DNA from: Gammaproteobacteria bacterium
GTDB lineage: Bacteria > Pseudomonadota > Gammaproteobacteria > Nitrococcales > Nitrococcaceae
Reading direction: 5' to 3'
Assembly (NCBI GenBank): GCA_030433275.1
Contig: JAUILK010000012.1
Coordinates: 1-64,000, forward strand
DNA: 64,000 bases
Shown here: positions 24,954 to 34,499 of the stretch, piece by piece
Numbering within the stretch: the stretch's first letter is position 1
Layout of the letters: each line of letters starts with the position of its first letter
Program-made: the position numbers and the translations under genes
Notes under the pieces: model-generated
The model's input: only the letters and a program-made list of their open reading frames with translations
The model's database searches: none
Told to the model about the DNA's origin: nothing

Positions 24954-27101
24954 ATGACCAGCGCGATGGAGCCCCATGCAGCCTGGCAAAAGCGCTACGA
25001 ACGAGAGCGCAAAGCGAGGCTGGAAGCCGAAGCTATTGCTGAAAAGTCAACCCGCGAGCTCTACGAGCTGATCCAAAATTTAAAGAAAGCCGCCGCAGAG
25101 CTGCGGCAAGCCAAAGAAGCGGCACAAGCTGCCAGCGTGGCCAAAGGCAATTTTCTAGCCAACATGAGCCACGAAATTCGCACCCCGATGAACGCCATCA
25201 TAGGCATGACCGAATTGGTGCTCGACACCGAGTTGACGGACACGCAACATGAGTACCTCGCCATGGTGCGCGAAGCCGGCAATTCCCTGCTGTCCCTATT
25301 GAACGACACACTCGATTTTTCCAAGATCGAAGCTGGCAAACTGGAACTCGACTCCGATGTGTTCGGCTTACGCGAACGCCTCGGTGACGCTATGAAATCG
25401 ATGGCGTTCCGTGCTCACGGCAAAGGCCTCGAGTTGGCCTATCACGTCCACTCCGAGGTACCGGATGCGCTCCTCGGGGACGCCTCGCGATTACGTCAAA
25501 TCGTAGTCAACCTGGTCGGAAACGCAATCAAATTCACCACCCAAGGCGAGGTAGTGCTCGACGTGGCCTGCACGTCGCAAACAGACGCCACTGCAGACAT
25601 CCATTTCACGGTCACCGACACTGGCATTGGCATTCCCGCCAACAAGCTGGAGAGCATCTTCGACTCATTCGAGCAGGCTGATATGTCGACGACGCGCCAA
25701 TTCGGCGGCACAGGCTTGGGACTGGCCATCTCTTCACGGTTGGTGGAATTGATGGGAGGTCGCATCTGGGCCGAAAGCGAGCCGGGACGCGGCAGTGGCT
25801 TCCACTTCACAGTAAAGTTCTCCCTAGCGGCCGAGCGGCCGAGCGAAGCGCAACCCCCTCAAACCGTTTTCCCACACGACGTGCGCGCGCTTATTGTCGA
25901 TGACAACGCCACGAATCGTCTGATCCTCAACGAGATGCTGAGCAATTGGGGCATGCAGGCAACATCCGTTGCCACCGTGGCTGAAGGGCTTGCTGCGCTG
26001 CGCGCGGCCTACGATGCAAGACAGCCGATTCACCTTGTAATTACTGATTGCCACATGCCCGGAGAAGACGGTTTTGACCTCGCTGAAAAGATCAACCGGA
26101 ACAGTCAACTCGCGGACATCCAATTGATTATGCTCACTTCTGGTAGCGAACCGGACGACATCAGGCGTTGCGAACAATTAGGGGTTGTCGCGCACTTGCT
26201 CAAACCGGTTAAGCAATCGGAACTGTTAGACGCCATCGGCTTGGCGCTCGGTCTGCAAGTGACCGAAGCAGAGATGCCGCTCGAAGAGGCGCGAAAGCTT
26301 GGCGCGTTGCGAATCCTCCTCGCCGAGGACAGCATCGTCAATCAGAAGTTGGCTCTCGGCTTGCTGCAAAAGCACGGCCACGATGTCACAGTCGCCAATA
26401 ATGGTAAGCAGGCTGTGGCCGCCATTGATGGAGAGTGCTTCGACCTCGTGCTGATGGATATTCAAATGCCGGAGATGGATGGATTGGAAGCCACCGCGGT
26501 GGTCCGCGCGAAAGAGATGAAAAGCGGCCGACACGTGCCCATCATCGCACTGACCGCCCACGCCATGGCAGAAGACCGCGAGCGTTGCTTGAAGGCCGGG
26601 ATGGATGGCTACGTCAGCAAACCCATCCGCGCCCGGGAACTGTTCGACACCATAGCCGCACTTATCGCCACAGAGGTGCCGGCACAGAGCGGCAAAACGC
26701 CCCCTGCAATGCAAGGGCAAGCCACAACAGAGCCGGCCACTTCTGCCGACGCACTTATCCACTGGACCGTGGCGCTGCAAACGGCGCAAGGCAACCAGGA
26801 TTTTCTGAAAGAACTGGTACAACTCCTACTGGAGGAATCTGCGAGGCTGTTCGTCGAAATTCATGCCGCCATCAAGGAACAGGATGCAAAAACCCTACAA
26901 CGCGCCGCCCACACGCTCAAGAGCTCCCTGAAGGCCTTAGGGGCCAGTTCCGTCGCGCAGGCTGCAGAACGTCTCGAGACCATCGGGCGCGAAAATCGAC
27001 TGAGTGACGCCAATGCAGCGGCTTCATTGCTGCATCAGCGGTTCGACCCGCTCAAGATTGAACTGCTTGCCTTTCTCGCCGGGGAAACAACCATCGCTTA
27101 G
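24954..27101 (+). CDS. Hybrid histidine kinase with two receivers and HPt (H-NOX-associated)
   Basis: A 715-aa soluble kinase. The N-terminal coiled coil (residues 8-65) is followed by HisKA with H73 (NMSHEIRTP), HATPase with GIGIPANKLESIFDSFEQ and GGTGLGLAI in parts, receiver 1 with D365, receiver 2 with D502, and a C-terminal HPt domain with H653 (AAHTLKSS). There is no transmembrane or ligand-binding domain, as expected when H-NOX serves as the sensory subunit. The HPt end needs a further receiver protein to deliver phosphate. The stop codon overlaps, tail to tail, that of the receiver-GDH gene on the other strand. Confidence 0.95.
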   Translation: MTSAMEPHAAWQKRYERERKARLEAEAIAEKSTRELYELIQNLKKAAAELRQAKEAAQAASVAKGNFLANMSHEIRTPMNAIIGMTELVLDTELTDTQHEYLAMVREAGNSLLSLLNDTLDFSKIEAGKLELDSDVFGLRERLGDAMKSMAFRAHGKGLELAYHVHSEVPDALLGDASRLRQIVVNLVGNAIKFTTQGEVVLDVACTSQTDATADIHFTVTDTGIGIPANKLESIFDSFEQADMSTTRQFGGTGLGLAISSRLVELMGGRIWAESEPGRGSGFHFTVKFSLAAERPSEAQPPQTVFPHDVRALIVDDNATNRLILNEMLSNWGMQATSVATVAEGLAALRAAYDARQPIHLVITDCHMPGEDGFDLAEKINRNSQLADIQLIMLTSGSEPDDIRRCEQLGVVAHLLKPVKQSELLDAIGLALGLQVTEAEMPLEEARKLGALRILLAEDSIVNQKLALGLLQKHGHDVTVANNGKQAVAAIDGECFDLVLMDIQMPEMDGLEATAVVRAKEMKSGRHVPIIALTAHAMAEDRERCLKAGMDGYVSKPIRARELFDTIAALIATEVPAQSGKTPPAMQGQATTEPATSADALIHWTVALQTAQGNQDFLKELVQLLLEESARLFVEIHAAIKEQDAKTLQRAAHTLKSSLKALGASSVAQAAERLETIGRENRLSDANAAASLLHQRFDPLKIELLAFLAGETTIA

Positions 27102-28747
27102 GGAAAGAGGCCCCGCAGCCGCTTCGCGCTCTCCACACGATAGAGCGCTTCGATCATAGCCGCGGTACGCACATCCAGCTTCTTTTCCTGGGCGCGCAGC
27201 AAAGTACGGCGAAAGGCATTGGTCAAGATGTCACGCAGCCGCGCATTGACCTCCTCCAGAGGCCACATGAGATTCTGCAAACCCTGTACCCATTCGAAAT
27301 AGGAGACGATGACCCCACCCGCATTGCCCAAGATGTCTGGAAGCACGAAGATACCACGCTCGTTCAATATCTCATCCGCTTCGAGCGTCGTGGGTCCGTT
27401 GGCACCTTCCGCCAGTATCTTACAAGCGAGCTGCCCAGCGTTTTCCGCAGTGATCTGATTTTGCAACGCGCAGGGAGCGAGAATGTCGCAGGGCAGTGTC
27501 AACATCTCACGGTTGCTGATTTTCTCTCCAAAGGGGCAACCGGCAAGCTGTTGATTCTCACGCACGTAGTCCCGCAGCTTGGCGATCGGTAACCCGTTCG
27601 AATGGTAGATTGCCGTGCTCACATCGCTCACCGCCACCACCTTGGCGCCGCACTCGGCGAGGAAAGTGGCGGCATGCGCACCCACGTTGCCAAAACCCTG
27701 CACCACGACCACGCCCTTGGCGATGTCGACGGTTAGGTGCCGACAAACCTCTTCGATCAGATAAACCAAACCGCGCCCGGTTGCTTCGTTACGACCGAGC
27801 GAGCCGCCGATGACGATCGGTTTGCCGGTCACCACGGAGGGCACGGAGTAGCCGACATGCTGACTATACGTATCCATTATCCACGCCATGACCTGCTCAC
27901 TAGTCCCCATGTCGGGGGCCGGGATATCCTTGTCGGGGCCGATAATACCAATGAACTCCAAGGCATAGCGTCGCGTCAACCGCTGCAGCTCACTGCCGGT
28001 CAGCCCGTTCGGATCGATCCGCACCCCACCCTTGGCACCACCAAAGGGGAGGTTCATGAGGGCGCATTTCCAGGTCATCCACATGGCCAAGGCCGCGACC
28101 TCGCCGAGATTGACGTCTTGATGGTAACGGATGCCACCCTTGGTCGGGCCCATGGCCAGGACGTGCTGTACCCGATAGGCAAAAACCGTTTCCACCTGCG
28201 CACGCTCATCCCGCCTAAATGGCAGGGTGGCGATCTGAGAACGCTCGGGAAACAACAACCGTTGGCGGATGTTGTCGTCGAGGCCGGCGATGTAGGCGGC
28301 CTTGAGGAATTGCTGCTGGGCAAGGCGGAACATCGCCGAGGACCACTCGGCGCCGCGCGCGCGGGTCCGCTCAATGGCATAGTGAATGGAGCGGATCAGG
28401 GAGGTCTCATTAATCCGCTCCTTGAGTAGAAAATCTTGTGCGCCGCTTTCGACTGCCTTGCCTGCCAGACTCACATCGTCGAGTGCGCTTTGAATAACGA
28501 TGGGTATATCGAGTGCCTGAGCGCGAACACGGTAGAAGGTGTCGAGTGCTTCACTATCTGGAAGCATGAGGTCCAGTAGTACGACATCGATGCCGCCGAC
28601 GGCCAAACGCTGGAGCGCCGCCGCGAGGCGGTCGACCGCGACCACCTCGAAGACAGGCCGCCTCGCCTGGCCCAGCAGCCGCTGTATCAACCGAGTGTAA
28701 AGCGGATTGTCCTCTACCAGAAGAACGGTGATTGGCTTGTCGGCCAT
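27098..28747 (-). CDS. Response-regulator receiver fused to glutamate dehydrogenase
   Basis: A 549-aa fusion. Residues 1-125 are a complete receiver domain: acidic pair E12-D13, phosphoacceptor D59 in VVLLDLMLP, S87 and K109. Residues about 138-549 are a full glutamate dehydrogenase of the Glu/Leu/Phe/Val family: GPTKGGIRYH (K203), TWKCALMNLPFGGAKGG (K227 and K239), catalytic D279 in PAPDMGT, and the dinucleotide loop GFGNVG (351-356). It normally interconverts glutamate with 2-oxoglutarate and ammonia using NAD(P). Nothing looks truncated. No DNA-binding output exists, so phosphorylation could control the enzyme directly. The gene is convergent with the H-NOX kinase. I know no characterised example. 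Confidence 0.94.
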   Translation of the reverse strand: MADKPITVLLVEDNPLYTRLIQRLLGQARRPVFEVVAVDRLAAALQRLAVGGIDVVLLDLMLPDSEALDTFYRVRAQALDIPIVIQSALDDVSLAGKAVESGAQDFLLKERINETSLIRSIHYAIERTRARGAEWSSAMFRLAQQQFLKAAYIAGLDDNIRQRLLFPERSQIATLPFRRDERAQVETVFAYRVQHVLAMGPTKGGIRYHQDVNLGEVAALAMWMTWKCALMNLPFGGAKGGVRIDPNGLTGSELQRLTRRYALEFIGIIGPDKDIPAPDMGTSEQVMAWIMDTYSQHVGYSVPSVVTGKPIVIGGSLGRNEATGRGLVYLIEEVCRHLTVDIAKGVVVVQGFGNVGAHAATFLAECGAKVVAVSDVSTAIYHSNGLPIAKLRDYVRENQQLAGCPFGEKISNREMLTLPCDILAPCALQNQITAENAGQLACKILAEGANGPTTLEADEILNERGIFVLPDILGNAGGVIVSYFEWVQGLQNLMWPLEEVNARLRDILTNAFRRTLLRAQEKKLDVRTAAMIEALYRVESAKRLRGLFP

Positions 28748-29063
28748 AGCCGCCTACTCCGCGAGCAACTCGAGGCTATCAATAATGATAGTGCCTCCAG
28801 CACCGGATGCCCGCTTCGGACCATCTCGAAGCAGTCCCGCACAAACGCCGCGCACCGCGCAGCCCGCCATCAAACCTTGGATAATCGCGCACTACCGTAG
28901 AACACGACGGTAAGCGAGTGGATAGGTCAAAGTTTTTAAATAAATTTACATTCGCAACTGACTCGTATTAACATTAATAATAGCATTCATATTAGACCCA
29001 CCCTCTCTGCGTAATTACTAAAAAATATAATTTTATAACTATACTTAATATAAGTTGATTAAG
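28748..29063. other. Divergent AT-rich promoter region
   Basis: 316 bp between the receiver-GDH gene (minus) and the dihaem protein (plus). The right half (28920-29060) is strikingly AT-rich and contains TATACT about 30 bp before the downstream ATG, a candidate -10 element. No small gene seen. Confidence 0.5.
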
Positions 29064-30398
29064 ATGAAACAAGTAGCGATCATTGCATTTGATATCCTAC
29101 GAACCGGCATAAGGACAACGAGCCATTTCGCGCTCGTCTTACCGCTCACGATCGGAACCGCACATTCCGTGGGGTTGTCACCGAGCATCGACGACAGTCA
29201 CTTTACTCCGTTGCAATTGTTGGGGAAAAATCTGTTCTTCGATACTTCGCTGTCCAACCCGACCGGCCAGTCCTGCGCGTCGTGCCACACACCTGAAAAT
29301 GCCTTCACCGATCCGGATAAATCATCACCCACTTCGGCCGGGGCCGATCCGAATTTATTTCTCAACCGCAATGCACCGACCATCATGTACATGGCCTACA
29401 GTCCGGCACTGCACTACAACGCCGATGATGACACCAATGTCGGGGGGCAATTCTGGGATGGGCGAACCGATTCACTGGAGGAACAGGCTAAACAGCCGCT
29501 ACTCAACCCATTGGAAATGGCCAATCCCAGCAAGGCAGCAGTGATTGACTCGGTACAAAACGGACCAAACGCGGAGTTGTTCAAATCGGTTTTCGGTATG
29601 GATGCTTTCACGGATACGGAGACCGCCTACGACAACCTGGTTCATGCCCTAGCGGGCTATGAACGCACCGCGGTGTTTGCTCCATTCAGCTCGAAATTCG
29701 ATGCCTACGTCGCCGGGAATGCCGAGTTGACTCCTGCCGAACAGGCCGGCCTGGAGTTGTTCAATGATCCCGCCAAGGGGAACTGCGCGGCTTGTCATAT
29801 TAGTACGCCATCGCCTGATGGGACACCTGCTTTATTCACCGACTTCACCTATGACAACATCGGCATCCCCAAAAACCCCGATAACCCATTTTATTCGCTA
29901 CCAGCCCAGTACAATCCTGACGGAGCGAAAGCGCTGGACCTCGGCTTGGGCAAGACCACCGGTGACCCGGATACAAACGGTCAGTTCAAGGTCAGCACGC
30001 TGCGCAATATTTCACTAACCGGGCCTTATGGCCACAATGGGTACTTCGACACGCTCGAACAAATCGTCGATTTCTATAATACCAGCGACGTCAAACCGGA
30101 ATGCTCCGATCCGTTGACCAGCGCTGCACTGGCAACAACGCTTGGCTGCTGGCCCGCGGCCGAGTATGTGGCCACCGTCAACCACGACGAGCTTGGCAAT
30201 CTCGGCCTCACCAGCGAGGAAGTGAGCGACATTGTCACATTTCTGGGCACACTTGAGGATGGTTGGACCGAGGCGCGTGCAACCACGGTGGGGGAGCCGC
30301 CAACGCTCGCGATGATCGTGCTGGGCCTGCTCGGTTTGCGCCTTGCCTACCGCTTGCCGAGGCCGCCTAAGCGTTACTCTGAGCGATACCCAGACTAA
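29064..30398 (+). CDS. Dihaem cytochrome c peroxidase/MauG-like protein with PEP-CTERM-like tail
   Basis: A 444-aa exported protein with a hydrophobic N-terminal signal region. Two haem c motifs are CASCH (71-75) and CAACH (241-245), in the CCP/MauG layout (ELTPAEQAGLELF before the second; TLRNISLTGPYGHNG as the distal Met/Tyr region). The C-terminal 34 residues start EPPTLAMIVLGLLG and end in a basic cluster, resembling a PEP-CTERM sorting signal that an exosortase would cleave. ATG 29064 is preferred over the TTG 3 codons upstream. It probably reduces H2O2 or oxidises a partner at the cell surface. No exosortase gene is in the window. Confidence 0.88.
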   Translation: MKQVAIIAFDILRTGIRTTSHFALVLPLTIGTAHSVGLSPSIDDSHFTPLQLLGKNLFFDTSLSNPTGQSCASCHTPENAFTDPDKSSPTSAGADPNLFLNRNAPTIMYMAYSPALHYNADDDTNVGGQFWDGRTDSLEEQAKQPLLNPLEMANPSKAAVIDSVQNGPNAELFKSVFGMDAFTDTETAYDNLVHALAGYERTAVFAPFSSKFDAYVAGNAELTPAEQAGLELFNDPAKGNCAACHISTPSPDGTPALFTDFTYDNIGIPKNPDNPFYSLPAQYNPDGAKALDLGLGKTTGDPDTNGQFKVSTLRNISLTGPYGHNGYFDTLEQIVDFYNTSDVKPECSDPLTSAALATTLGCWPAAEYVATVNHDELGNLGLTSEEVSDIVTFLGTLEDGWTEARATTVGEPPTLAMIVLGLLGLRLAYRLPRPPKRYSERYPD

Positions 30399-30418
30399 CA
30401 ATCACTCAGAATCCGGAT

Positions 30419-30452
30419 AGGAGGGACGGGCTTCTCGTGGCGCCGCCCTCCT
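30419..30452 (+). terminator. Possible terminator hairpin after the dihaem gene
   Basis: AGGAGGG (30419-30425) pairs with CCCTCCT (30446-30452), extended by CGG/CCG after a one-base bulge. It lies about 20 bp after the stop codon. There is no strong T-tract, so termination is only inferred. Confidence 0.4.
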
Positions 30453-30553
30453 TCGATAACCCACAACCCATTGAGCTACAGCTTGATACACGCATCCTCA
30501 TTTTCGCATAACGATCCACATCGACGGCCAGACAACAGCGGTATCCTACTCAT

Positions 30554-31420
30554 TTAAAGGCCTTTTTTGCAACGCATCTCAGACGCACCATATCCCCAGG
30601 TGATCAAGGCTTCGCCCTGATGTTCCCAGAAAATCTCGTTGCGCCCCTGGTACCTTGCGCCGCTGCCGCTCGAATGCAAGTACATCAGCGAGACGCTGTC
30701 TGCGTATTCGGCGATCAACGTTGGGGGGACGGTTTGAAAGAATGTAGCGATGACCTCGTTGCCAGAGTTGCCGCCGCACACATACCGGAGCGGGCCATTG
30801 CTGGGCACTAGCCGATACCGAGCCTGCAATTCGGCAATGCGGTGAATATACCCATCTCGGACGCATCCGCCCTTGTCGTCGCTCTTCCAACACTCGTTCC
30901 GCCCTTTGATCCAGCCTCGTTGTTGCGCTTTCAACTGTGGCAAATGCTTGTTGGCCGCTTTCTTGGACGCGATTGCGTAGACATCGGACAACTGGCGATC
31001 GAGCGCGGACAATCCCCTGTCTTTGCAAATTACCGCCTCGATGCTGTCCGGTCTCACCTTCTCGCAGTCGTATGACGGCCATGGCGCCATCGCCGCGACA
31101 GCCGCGTTGCCGTCACCGCTCGACCTCGAACGGCCCCCTCGAACAAGCTGATCGATGTACCAGCACCAACTTTCACTGTCGCGACTCGGAACATCCGGTT
31201 CGCCTCGGACCCCGAGCTTGAACTCGATCACGGCTTTCCATTCCTCAGAGCCGGCGTCCGGACCATGATTGTGCAAATCGCTTGTTGGTACTTGCTCTTC
31301 GATCGTTCGGTACCAGAAATCCGAGCAAAGCAACCACGGTGCCGAATTTGGTTTCTGGCCCTCACTTGCCTGCACGCAAACCGCCACAACGACGAGAGAA
31401 AACAGCAAATTCCTACTCAT
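30554..31420 (-). CDS. Exported LprI-MliC two-domain protein (lysozyme inhibitor-like)
   Basis: A 288-aa protein with an N-terminal signal peptide (MSRNLLFSLVVVAVCVQAS). Residues 117-204 match the LprI (DUF1311) fold: YDCEKVRPDSIEAVICKD, LSALDRQLSDVY, and QQRGWIKGRNECW with its paired cysteines. Residues 213-285 resemble MliC, the C-type lysozyme inhibitor: YVCGGNSGNEV, SGARYQGRNEIFWEHQGEA in parts, and a closing RCKK cysteine. Both families have members that block host or predator lysozymes. A central linker (40-115) is unassigned. The gene is isolated, convergent with the dihaem gene. Confidence 0.8.
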   Translation of the reverse strand: MSRNLLFSLVVVAVCVQASEGQKPNSAPWLLCSDFWYRTIEEQVPTSDLHNHGPDAGSEEWKAVIEFKLGVRGEPDVPSRDSESWCWYIDQLVRGGRSRSSGDGNAAVAAMAPWPSYDCEKVRPDSIEAVICKDRGLSALDRQLSDVYAIASKKAANKHLPQLKAQQRGWIKGRNECWKSDDKGGCVRDGYIHRIAELQARYRLVPSNGPLRYVCGGNSGNEVIATFFQTVPPTLIAEYADSVSLMYLHSSGSGARYQGRNEIFWEHQGEALITWGYGASEMRCKKGL

Positions 31421-31666
31421 GAAAAACCCCTGAAATAACTGCTCGGACCGCTAATAACGATCAACGGCCTACCTTACGAGTCGATTCCTTCATATCTCGA
31501 GCAATATTTGCGGCAATGGCATTAAAGTGACACTCACCGATTTGCAAGCGTCGTGGAAGCTAAACGGAGTAGTGATATGCAGCTTTCGCCTCGTCTCGGC
31601 CTCTCTGTGCCATCCTGGTCGCCGGCCATGATGTGATCACAACCCAGGTGAACCCGTGTCCTTTAT

Positions 31667-32026
31667 TTACCTTCCGAAACCAAGGTCCTTGCGCATTTCC
31701 CGTAGTAATGCATGCTGAGCATCTTCTCTAGCTGCTGTGCTTGGCGGACTATCCTTCATCTCTTGCAACTTTTCAAAAACCGAATCAGAGGCATAGAGTC
31801 GCAACTTTAGCTCCCAATAGGCATACTTTTTCAATGCCTCCTCAGAATTTGTCAGCGCCACCTCCCTGTAGGCATCCAATAGGCCATCGCAAGAGGCCTT
31901 ATAGTCAAGAAGCCACATTTCTTTCAATTTTGATTTTTGCTCTAAAAAATGCTTAATTAAAAAAGTTATTACACCACCAAATCCAACACCAGAGAGAAAC
32001 GAGGTAACCGCGCCAATTTCATCCAT
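31667..32026 (-). CDS. Hypothetical small membrane-anchored protein
   Basis: A 119-aa protein with one N-terminal hydrophobic segment (FLSGVGFGGVITFLI) followed by a charged, helical, probably cytoplasmic domain rich in Lys, Glu and Leu. It is AT-rich relative to neighbours and has no partner gene within 200 bp, so it looks acquired. No family recognised. Confidence 0.6.
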   Translation of the reverse strand: MDEIGAVTSFLSGVGFGGVITFLIKHFLEQKSKLKEMWLLDYKASCDGLLDAYREVALTNSEEALKKYAYWELKLRLYASDSVFEKLQEMKDSPPSTAAREDAQHALLREMRKDLGFGR

Positions 32027-32206
32027 AGCTACTTCTTAAAATGTGCGAATTAATGGGGTCAGATTCGATGATACTACAGATATCCATTGGACATAGTAGC
32101 CCCCGGAATCAAATAACCCGTGGCACCAGAGGTGCTATAATAGTACTCGTCGAACGAGCGCCGAGCTGCAGTAACAGATCCACACTTTAATCAGCGAGAT
32201 TTCTAC

Positions 32207-32220
32207 ACGGCCCGGGCCGT
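32207..32220. repeat. 14-bp perfect palindrome
   Basis: ACGGCCCGGGCCGT lies just downstream of the stop codon of the minus-strand exported protein at 32254. It may form a short GC hairpin acting in termination; no T-tract follows. Confidence 0.35.
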
Positions 32221-32253
32221 ATTCTGGGCCCGAGCCTCTGGAGTTCACCAAAC

Positions 32254-32685
32254 TTAGAACTTGGCTGCGCTTTGCTGTTTTGCCTCCTGCAGCAGAGCCT
32301 CGACCGCCTGGGCCACGTGGCCGGCAGCCTCGGCCGACTCGATCCGTGTACCGATGTGCGCGAGCTTCGCGGCCTGCTTCAACATACGGGCAGCCGTTTC
32401 ACTGACCTCCATGTCGTGGATTGCACCCTTTCCCATACCGTTGCAGGGATTGCCGACCGAATCATCGAAGCCTTTCCCTCGCTCGCCGACCAAACAGTTA
32501 ACTACGTGCTGAAGGTGCATCCGATGCTTTTTCAACGTATCCGCCTTAGCGGCGAAACCGGCATGTTCTGTAGCTGTATCCAGTTCCTTCATACCATGGC
32601 TCGTTGCGAGCGCGAGGCCAGCGGCGAACAGGCCAGCTACAAGGGTGAGAGATAAGCCGAATCGAGTTGCCACATGTCTGTGCAT
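32254..32685 (-). CDS. Hypothetical exported protein with conserved Cys/His blocks
   Basis: A 143-aa protein with a clear signal peptide (FGLSLTLVAGLFAAGLALATS). The mature part has a His/Cys segment (KHRMHLQHVVNCLVGERGKGFD, shown in parts), GNPCNGMGKGAIHDM, and a helical Ala-rich C-terminus. The two cysteines could form a disulfide or bind metal or haem. ATG 32685 follows GGAGG at reasonable distance; the frame extends 12 codons upstream. It is located next to the MerR/CDF metal-efflux pair, so a periplasmic metal role is possible but unproven. Confidence 0.75.
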   Translation of the reverse strand: MHRHVATRFGLSLTLVAGLFAAGLALATSHGMKELDTATEHAGFAAKADTLKKHRMHLQHVVNCLVGERGKGFDDSVGNPCNGMGKGAIHDMEVSETAARMLKQAAKLAHIGTRIESAEAAGHVAQAVEALLQEAKQQSAAKF

Positions 32686-32840
32686 TATGCTGCACCTCCA
32701 CTTGCATAGATCGCTCGACAAAATCCGGTTTACTGGACTGACTGTGCCCTCATACCGGATCGCGACTGCTCACCCCCTTCGAGAAACCATAGACTATTCC
32801 ATGCGGATCCGCCGCCGCTCATGCAGGAATCGAATGGCCA

Positions 32841-33290
32841 TTAGTCTTCGAATGCCTCTGGAAAACTCATATGCTCGGTATGGCATCGATCCTGCATCGA
32901 GAGAACTCGAATCACGCGGCAATCGGCCACCCGGCCACCACGGCACGCCCCCGCCATGCGCTGCAACTCATGGCGCAATAGCTCCAGACGTCTGAGTCGG
33001 CTTTCGATGGCGGCAAGGTTGGTGCGTGCGATGCGATCGATCTCAGCGCAGGACTGATCTGGATAATCCGCCAAAGTCAGTAACTCACGGATCTGCTCGA
33101 GGCTAAACCCAAGCTCCCGAGCGTGGCGGATGAAGTTCAAACGACCCAGATGCTGCACTGTGTAACGCCTCTGATTGCCGCCGGTGCGCCGTGGCTGCGG
33201 CATCACGCCGATACGCTCATAGTGACGGATGGTCTGTATCGAACAGCCGGTGCGTCGGGATAGAACACCGATCGAGAGCCCATTTGGCAT
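32841..33290 (-). CDS. MerR-family metal-responsive regulator
   Basis: A MerR regulator: winged helix with TGCSIQTIRHYERIGVMP, a dimer helix, and a C-terminal metal-binding loop containing C85 and a CRGGRVADC motif (numbering from the upstream GTG), as in ZntR/CadR/PbrR proteins. A third Cys-His cluster (CHTEH) follows. ATG 33290 is preferred. The GTG at 33302 would start directly beside the -35 element of the divergent promoter. It should repress and, with metal, activate the CDF exporter on the other strand. Zn(II), Cd(II) or Pb(II) are the likely inducers. Confidence 0.92.
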   Translation of the reverse strand: MPNGLSIGVLSRRTGCSIQTIRHYERIGVMPQPRRTGGNQRRYTVQHLGRLNFIRHARELGFSLEQIRELLTLADYPDQSCAEIDRIARTNLAAIESRLRRLELLRHELQRMAGACRGGRVADCRVIRVLSMQDRCHTEHMSFPEAFED

Positions 33291-33302
33291 CGTCGTTCTC
33301 AC

Positions 33303-33333
33303 TTGAACCTACAACGACTATAGGTTTTATCTT
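33303..33333 (+). promoter_or_regulatory. MerR-type operator-promoter for the CDF exporter
   Basis: TTGAAC (33303-33308) and TATCTT (33328-33333) are separated by 19 bp, the over-long spacer that MerR proteins correct by DNA distortion. The dyad AACCTA-N9-TAGGTT (33306-33326) sits in the spacer. Position and geometry fit control of the downstream transporter by the divergent MerR gene. Confidence 0.85.
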
Positions 33334-33379
33334 AACAAATGTTGGTGATGTGCTTTCCGAATTCGGCGAATAATGCGCG

Positions 33380-34330
33380 ATGCCGCCTCATACTTCTTAT
33401 CGACACAACGGGGATAGCAATACCGGCGCCCTACTGTGGAGCCTGCTTCTGACGCTCGCATTCGCCGCTGTCGAGGCGGTCGGCGGAATACTCTCAGGCT
33501 CGCTCGCCTTGCTGGGCGACGCCGGTCACATGGCCACCGATTCGCTCGCGTTGGGCTTCGGTGCCCTGGCGGCCTGGCTCAGCCGCCACCCGCCGACAAT
33601 GCGCCACTCCTATGGATTACAACGCTTCGAGCTGCTCGGCGGGTTGGTCAACGCACTTTTCATGCTCGGCGTGGTGGCTTGGCTCGGCTACGAGGCCGTG
33701 CAGCGACTCGCGGCACCGCAGCCGATCGCGGGGAGCATCGTAATGGTCATCGCCACCGTCGGTTTGAGTGTGAACTTGCTAGTGCTGCGGATCCTGCACA
33801 GCGGCGCGCAAACCTTCAATACCCGCGGGGCGATTTTGCATGTGCTCGGCGACTTGCTGGGCTCAGTGGCGGCACTGACCAGCGGCGCCATCGTTTTTTT
33901 CACCGGTTGGACCCCCATCGATCCCCTGTTGTCGCTGGTGATCGGTGTACTGATTCTGGGCTCGACGGGCAAGCTCCTGCTCGAGGTCTTGCATGTCTTT
34001 CTCGAAGGGGTCCCCCCGCACGTAGACCTGGCCGAGGTCGGCCGCGCCCTGGCTGAACTCGAGGGAGTCGAGGAAGTGCATGATCTGCATATTTGGACTC
34101 TAGCCTCCGGCAGTCATGCCCTTTCAGCGCATATCTATATCCGCGACCTGAACCGCTGGCCGCTCTTACTGGCCACCATACAAAATTTGCTCAGACACGA
34201 GTACGAGATCACGCATACCACGATCCAGCCCGAATCCACAACGGCGATCACCTTCAAACCCCTGAGCGATGTCCTACGCGAGCTAAAAACACCGCGCCGC
34301 GACCGGCCCCGGTCCCATAATCCCACCTAA
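33380..34330 (+). CDS. CDF-family divalent-cation exporter (CzcD/ZitB type)
   Basis: A 316-aa cation diffusion facilitator with six membrane helices and a cytoplasmic C-terminal domain. The metal-site motifs are in helix 2 (LLGDAGHMATDS, H and D) and helix 5 (HVLGDLLGS). The cytoplasmic domain has VEEVHDLHIWTLASGSHALSAHI in parts, with family histidines. It exports Zn(II) and possibly Cd(II) or Co(II) in exchange for protons. The start is ATG 33380, 47 bp after the -10 of a MerR-type promoter; a nearer ATG at 33373 is out of frame. Confidence 0.94.
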   Translation: MPPHTSYRHNGDSNTGALLWSLLLTLAFAAVEAVGGILSGSLALLGDAGHMATDSLALGFGALAAWLSRHPPTMRHSYGLQRFELLGGLVNALFMLGVVAWLGYEAVQRLAAPQPIAGSIVMVIATVGLSVNLLVLRILHSGAQTFNTRGAILHVLGDLLGSVAALTSGAIVFFTGWTPIDPLLSLVIGVLILGSTGKLLLEVLHVFLEGVPPHVDLAEVGRALAELEGVEEVHDLHIWTLASGSHALSAHIYIRDLNRWPLLLATIQNLLRHEYEITHTTIQPESTTAITFKPLSDVLRELKTPRRDRPRSHNPT

Positions 34331-34499
34331 GCCCCCGTATCCAGTTTTCTACTCCGCACTTCCGCCAGTCGGCGTTGGCCGCAATCGTAATCGGCAAGCT
34401 CGTCAACAAATGCAGCCCCGCGGCGCATACCGGCTCGAGATCATCCAGAGCGCTTTGTACGATTAGAGCAGGATATGGATCTTTGCCGGATCTCCATAC

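Follow-up and report, generated by a model that had tools for sequence, protein, structure and literature searches.

A Putatively Exported LprI-MliC Fusion Protein Preceded by a Conserved, Predicted Three-Helix Domain in a Gammaproteobacterium

Results

The LprI-MliC Gene and Its Putative Export Signal

The DNA under study (the window) is a stretch of 64,000 nucleotides from a Gammaproteobacteria bacterium of the family Nitrococcaceae (contig JAUILK010000012.1, assembly GCA_030433275.1, positions 1 to 64,000). Positions 30554..31420 are occupied by an open reading frame (ORF) of 288 amino acids with an ATG start, delimited by ORF calling, Pfam searches, alignment and structure prediction. The gene is on the minus strand, which had not been specified in the original prediction for this locus. 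A Shine-Dalgarno-like CAGGGG (31427..31432, minus) was read by eye 6 nt upstream of the ATG. The ORF provided the only match to PF07007 or PF09864 in its own genome (E ≤ 0.001), and the copy number of the LprI-MliC gene there is one. The products of four loci in a scan of named genomes (L004, L005, L006 and L007) align with the protein over nearly its whole length at 55–66% identity. Thus, the 288-aa ORF is not a chance frame.

Residues 1–18 (31367..31420, minus) resemble a signal peptide when inspected by eye, with hydrophobic residues 5–16 followed by VQA/S, and model confidence was low over residues 1–28. A crude pattern search detected no lipobox, and Cys15 lies outside any lipobox context. 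The start is consistent with a soluble periplasmic protein that undergoes putative export. The LprI and MliC profiles both scored above their cut-offs behind this signal-peptide-like start in the one minus-strand ORF, which upholds the prediction that the two domains are joined in a single exported, probably periplasmic protein. NCBIfam yielded no match for the 288-aa protein, and no PDB sequence matched up to E 1 when the protein itself was the query. An AlphaFold2 model was built from the window protein and 19 relatives, an alignment of 20 rows that was confined to loci of named genomes and from which L017, L023 and L025–L027 were omitted; alignment A8 was likewise restricted to loci of named genomes. 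The model had a mean pLDDT of 83.7 and a pTM of 0.61, at which value the relative placement of the predicted domains would not be fixed.

The Gene Resides in an Accessory Stretch

The LprI-MliC gene is part of a 3.35-kb stretch (28859..32207, strand unspecified) that also includes a cytochrome c peroxidase-like gene (PF03150 in Pfam) and an ORF of 119 aa. In the congener G004 the sequences that match window positions 27000–28858 (91%) and 32208–34427 (90%) are adjacent with 143 bases between them; these bases replace the 3.35 kb, and the peroxidase-like gene is absent with the rest. In a second congener, G001, the match ends at 30361, short of the LprI-MliC gene, and the other flank is elsewhere on the contig. 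The absence of the stretch in G004 and the broken match in G001 indicate that the LprI-MliC gene is accessory in its genus. The window protein had no match in the four congeners searched, in which the gene is thus dispensable. A genome search matched three of 59 genomes, its own included, and the other two matches were partial and confined to the LprI part (residues 112–199 in G030 and 108–210 in G058).

The neighboring ORFs of 119 aa and 140 aa had nothing in Pfam, and inspection by eye of ORFs of at least 180 aa revealed no neighbor suggestive of peptidoglycan metabolism. In a separate ORF of 549 aa at 27098–28747 (minus), a response-regulator receiver domain (PF00072, E 1.9e-16) is fused with a Glu/Leu/Phe/Val dehydrogenase (PF02812, E 2e-50; PF00208, E 2.2e-77). 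A receiver-dehydrogenase fusion appears to be unusual, and the DNA of this one is kept in two congeners.

Location within an accessory stretch would suit an orphan immunity protein that counters muramidase-type toxins of rival bacteria, for example, type VI secretion effectors. In PMC12135965 and PMC8867033, LprI/DUF1311 proteins are predicted to act as the immunity partners of type VI effectors that cleave peptidoglycan, and the type VI sheath gene VipB was present in congeners G001 and G004. However, VipB had no match in the own genome (G000), and no effector gene adjoins the LprI-MliC gene as judged by eye. Moreover, the fusion is not tied to type VI secretion: among nine genomes searched, seven possessed both halves (in two pieces in G139), but only two of these seven had VipB. 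An orphan immunity function was judged to be improbable.

The MliC Half Retains One of Two Inhibitor Motifs

The MliC domain occupies residues 205–288 (30557..30808, minus) as assigned by Pfam, a profile match in the PDB and the predicted structure. PF09864 matched residues 213–280 (E 7.3e-14, 51.9 bits compared to a cut-off of 22). Residues 205–288 were predicted as an eight-stranded barrel, with mean pLDDT values above 90 in ten-residue blocks from residue 201 to the end. The predicted half superimposed on Brucella PliC (4mir) with a Z-score of 13.5 (rmsd 1.6, 79 residues aligned) and on Pseudomonas aeruginosa MliC solved with lysozyme with a Z-score of 12.3 (rmsd 1.7, 76 residues aligned). 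The PliC and MliC crystal entries overall gave Z-scores of 11.7–13.5, and the NMR entry for Escherichia coli YdhA gave 8.8. Failure of the C-terminal part to resemble MliC had been set beforehand as grounds for abandoning the original prediction; both the profile and the predicted fold instead bear the assignment out. A profile of 24 rows, from which L023 was omitted owing to the C-terminal META domain of that protein, reached 3f6z (P. aeruginosa MliC with hen lysozyme; E 0.0021) and 4mir among PDB sequences, and was weak on Salmonella PliC (3oe3, E 0.054) and E. coli YdhA (2f09, E 0.14). Cys215 on strand 1 and Cys284 on strand 8 of the predicted barrel occupy the positions of the cysteine pair of MliC and PliC proteins, and would form a disulfide.

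Two inhibitory motifs are described for MliC in PMC5507604, SxSGAxY in loop 4 and YxxxTKG on strand 6. The first is matched exactly by SGSGARY at residues 251–257 (30650..30670, minus). The exact form occurs in 11 of the 24 rows, window included, and a looser form in 22. The second motif is absent from the window protein. Alignment places WEHQG (residues 265–269; 30614..30628, minus) at its site with His267 in place of the lysine. Among the 24 rows, again with the window protein included, this position is His in 20, Lys in two and Glu and Gln in one each. Membership in the MliC/PliC family thus is by profile and fold, not by the full inhibitor motif. The alteration of YxxxTKG may change the “double key-lock” reported for P. 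aeruginosa MliC, and the target may differ. The best reading of the alignment is that the second contact with a lysozyme-fold enzyme is probably modified by the substitution of His267 for Lys. In a separate three-part relative, L047 (genome G529), the loop-4 motif is degenerate as well, which suggests that the inhibitor site may be lost while the LprI and N-terminal domains stay.

The LprI Half

The LprI domain (residues 115–204; 30809..31078, minus) was assigned by Pfam, alignments and the predicted structure. PF07007 matched residues 127–202 (E 1.4e-5, 25.9 bits with a cut-off of 22), and all five rows of alignment A1 matched the LprI profile with E values up to 10 admitted. The half is predicted as a bundle of four helices (127–133, 135–155, 160–179 and 183–201) and is strongly conserved over the 20-row structure alignment. 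Its cysteines Cys119, Cys132, Cys177 and Cys186 (C4, C17, C62 and C71) are invariant in 24 rows.

The LprI part (window 30887–31096, minus) also matched the PHROG families phrog_4675 (E 2.1e-14, the best value), phrog_14799 and phrog_33858, which are of unknown function and comprise 235–262 positions. None of these matches extends beyond LprI and the residues immediately preceding it, and they imply that LprI-like domains also are found in phage protein families.

A Conserved, Predicted Three-Helix Domain Precedes the LprI-MliC Pair

The region between the signal peptide and LprI had been regarded as an unassigned linker of 75 residues with possible extra function. It does carry something extra, but most of it is not a linker: profile searches, alignments and the predicted structure delimit a conserved, predicted folded domain of ~68 residues (residues ~29–96; 31133..31336, minus). 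The true linker is only residues 97–114 (31079..31132, minus), which are poorly conserved and mostly of low model confidence. The domain bears the motif HGPDxGSxEW and helices at 34–43, 59–68 and 83–95. When it was predicted alone (pLDDT 85.8, pTM 0.75), the same three helices emerged as in the whole-protein model.

Residues 29–96 matched nothing over the curated cut-offs in Pfam or NCBIfam; sub-threshold hits included Cullin_binding (E 0.011, one of five rows). The best profile match to PDB sequences had E 0.15, and comparison of the model with the PDB gave a best E of 3.9 in Foldseek and a best Z-score of 2.5 among 31 chains in VIA. The absent fold match in the PDB does not show that the fold is new, nor does the absence of a library match exclude a family for these residues. 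Nine columns are invariant among 14 aligned domain rows that include free-standing proteins. The equivalents of Cys32 and Cys86 are both kept in each of the 11 rows of non-viral contigs; the three viral-contig rows lack the pair and have two other cysteines elsewhere in the domain. This pattern of joint retention or joint replacement fits a disulfide, and in the window protein Cys32 and Cys86 presumably form one.

That 17 of the 21 named loci with LprI and MliC are without the N-terminal domain would be expected if the region were a functionless spacer in an ordinary two-domain LprI-MliC inhibitor. The nine invariant columns, the confident fold predicted for the region alone and the occurrence of the domain on its own in other genomes all oppose a spacer, which was considered very improbable.

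Six three-part proteins besides the window protein possess the domain, namely L004–L007 and those of G139 and G529. The G139 protein is frame-broken inside MliC, and the G529 protein (L047) has a diverged N-terminal domain, the degenerate loop-4 motif noted above and an MliC score of 17.0 compared to the Pfam cut-off of 22. A domain profile matched seven of 369 genomes of the class and a broader profile matched five of 398 genomes of the phylum, the own genome included in each case; the match in G525 was weak (E 2.2e-4). In the two sets combined, and besides G000, G139 and G529, eight genomes harbor the domain in free-standing form. It spans five families of the class of the window, and others. 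The free-standing proteins are L029, L031–L034, L076, L077 and, weakly, L079, along with the viral-contig lipoproteins L038–L040; the relation of all of them to the HGPDxGSxEW domain is by profile. No LprI or MliC domain was found in the same frame as these free-standing copies, and the L033 frame has no ATG, GTG or TTG before the domain. A crude pattern identified a lipobox-like start in nine of 11 free-standing proteins, compared with none of seven three-part and five of 20 two-part proteins. The domain is a mobile module.

On each of eight viral contigs there is a gene for a small lipoprotein, mostly of about 90 aa, with a HGPDYGSQEW core; these genes may lie in host flanks. A viral or plasmid origin was not sustained. 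When viral contigs were scanned with the full-length alignment, none of the 66 pattern matches was confirmed as a relative, and L038, one of the viral-contig lipoproteins, had no counterpart among phage records. Among plasmid records the N-terminal domain of the window protein had a best match of only E 5, and L038 had one partial match, in Paraburkholderia caledonica (E 5e-4, 43% covered).

A strict partner logic, in which the domain stands alone only where a separate LprI-MliC protein exists, was refuted by G205, G419, G316, G160 and G078 of the class set: these genomes have the free-standing domain without an LprI-MliC profile match and without PF09864. In the weakly matching G525, a different gene gives an LprI-type match and PF09864 has none. 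In total, an LprI-MliC match over both halves is lacking in six of the eight genomes that have the domain on its own; only G617 and G730, from a single genus, hold both at separate places. G617 and G730 also share a 1072-aa ORF and one other near the domain; these two aside, no recurrent neighbor was evident by eye in ten regions, with ORFs inspected for eight. In G205 an ecotin gene (873–1364; PF03974, E 2.2e-37) ends 49 nt before the lipoprotein copy L029 (1414–1719) on the same strand, and both products could be periplasmic inhibitors of enzymes, encoded in one operon. Three more of 11 genomes searched have ecotin, on other contigs or far away, and ecotin was beside none of the other free-standing copies listed. 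The link between ecotin and the domain was set aside as a single observation of coincidence grade.

The LprI-MliC Fusion Is Recurrent

The two domains had been held to occur normally apart, which is correct as a matter of frequency, as most matches are to the LprI half alone, but not as a claim of novelty: the fusion is already known and recurrent, and what is new is the delimited third domain at residues ~29–96. All 21 loci in the scan of named genomes cover LprI and MliC, 17 without the N-terminal domain and four with all three. Among them are Pseudomonadota, Myxococcota, Thermodesulfobacteriota and one Nitrospirota bin. The 24-row profile matched 102 of 398 genomes of the phylum; in 12, own included, it covered both halves in a single frame (query start ≤ 9, end ≥ 164), with LprI before MliC in each. 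Of the 369 genomes of the class, 22 matched, with both halves in one frame in three (own included) and in two pieces in G139; most other matches of the profile were to the LprI half alone. Among plasmid records both halves were covered in 13 of the best 20 of 21 places (start 104–115, end 285–288). Six of the seven Azospirillum places among the plasmid matches listed are annotated as “MliC family protein” and one is without annotation. A further elaboration exists in Propionivibrio dicarboxylicus (L023:3914–4909), in which LprI-MliC is followed by a C-terminal META domain (PF03724, E 3.2e-12).

According to PMC2267010, the great majority of COG3895 (MliC) proteins contain no further conserved domain, and PMC7933661 notes that the founding LprI of Mycobacterium tuberculosis has MliC as a second domain. 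The latter was the only literature found that names both PF07007 and PF09864; a search for LprI in combination with MliC yielded three papers.

A tree of 34 LprI-MliC rows was poorly resolved, with bootstrap values that did not settle. The three-part rows scatter in it (five changes), but a single three-part clade was not rejected (p-AU 0.183 with all seven rows and 0.317 without L047), and so the tree would give no verdict on a single origin of the three-part form.

Discussion

The favored interpretation, which we consider probable, is that the window protein is a soluble periplasmic inhibitor of a lysozyme-fold glycosidase in which the LprI and N-terminal domains add binding surface or target choice. 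The protein would be exported to the periplasm as a soluble protein, where the C-terminal MliC barrel would insert the loop-4 SGSGARY into the active-site cleft of the enzyme. The target could be a c-type lysozyme of external origin or a bacterial enzyme, whether muramidase or lytic transglycosylase. Extra binding surface, or control over target choice and location, may come from the helical LprI domain and the N-terminal three-helix domain. We infer binding and inhibition, as well as the target, the disulfides and the contributions of the LprI and N-terminal domains. Lysozyme inhibition is reported for PliC and two MliC proteins in PMC2267010, and M. tuberculosis LprI is proposed in PMC7933661 to confer lysozyme resistance, for which the MliC domain suffices. 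The suggestion that the fused protein blocks more than one lysozyme class did not gain support: in the relevant passage of PMC7933661, the LprI-only protein ScwA left lysozyme resistance unaffected.

A different target is envisaged if the protein regulates the lytic transglycosylases of its own cell, restraining or stabilizing endogenous murein hydrolases and being largely unconnected with animal lysozyme. The 21 named holders of LprI-MliC are metagenome-assembled genomes or belong to genera that live in soil or water, and the lysine of the second inhibitor motif is changed, both of which favor such a regulator. In addition, the LprI-domain protein ScwA of Salmonella is described in PMC7933661 as periplasmic, without a role there in lysozyme resistance, and as raising levels of MltD, and in P. 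aeruginosa MltF is inhibited by IltA and MltB by Ivy proteins (PMC10746161). However, lack of a match in the four congeners searched is odd for a housekeeping function, no peptidoglycan gene is linked among ORFs of at least 180 aa viewed by eye, and the loop-4 lysozyme motif is kept. Regulation of endogenous enzymes is, on balance, unlikely.

Within the favored reading of a periplasmic inhibitor, a bolder proposal is that residues 29–96 define a family of periplasmic or lipoprotein domains with the motif HGPDxGSxEW that bind a peptidoglycan-cleaving enzyme or peptidoglycan itself, and hence that the window protein is a three-pronged inhibitor with a retuned target. The retuning would be suggested by the second MliC motif, in which the replacement of Lys by His is conserved. 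This proposal is speculative and we think it doubtful. Only the fusion would tie the N-terminal domain to lysozyme.

As the fusion architecture is known, the main surprise of the original prediction falls away. The lead that remains is a small domain, without a family name in the libraries searched and probably with a disulfide, that is fused before a lysozyme-inhibitor pair and elsewhere stands free. If the domain acts in the same pathway, the fusion hints at the function of the free-standing lipoproteins. The conserved change in the second motif also raises the question of whether it is an animal lysozyme or a bacterial enzyme that this subfamily inhibits.

Among known systems, M. tuberculosis LprI as described in PMC7933661 likewise combines LprI and MliC in one exported protein; going by description, it is a lipoprotein, whereas the window protein is without a lipobox and has the extra N-terminal domain. 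Salmonella ScwA resembles the window protein in being periplasmic, not lipid-anchored and with LprI located C-terminal to another region, but ScwA is without the MliC domain that the window protein has and showed no lysozyme role in the tests recounted in PMC7933661. P. aeruginosa MliC (3f6z) and Brucella PliC (4mir) share the fold and the SxSGAxY loop with the window protein, in which, in contrast, YxxxTKG is replaced and the barrel is fused to other domains. The two-part LprI-MliC proteins of Azospirillum, Skermanella, Shewanella, Microbulbifer, Microvirga and others are 48–69% identical to the window protein over LprI and MliC (36% for Cupriavidus), but all are without the N-terminal domain; where annotated at all, they are labeled “MliC family protein” or “lysozyme inhibitor LprI family protein.” Finally, the small free-standing proteins share the HGPDxGSxEW domain with the window protein as judged by profile, but carry it alone and mostly behind a lipobox-like start.
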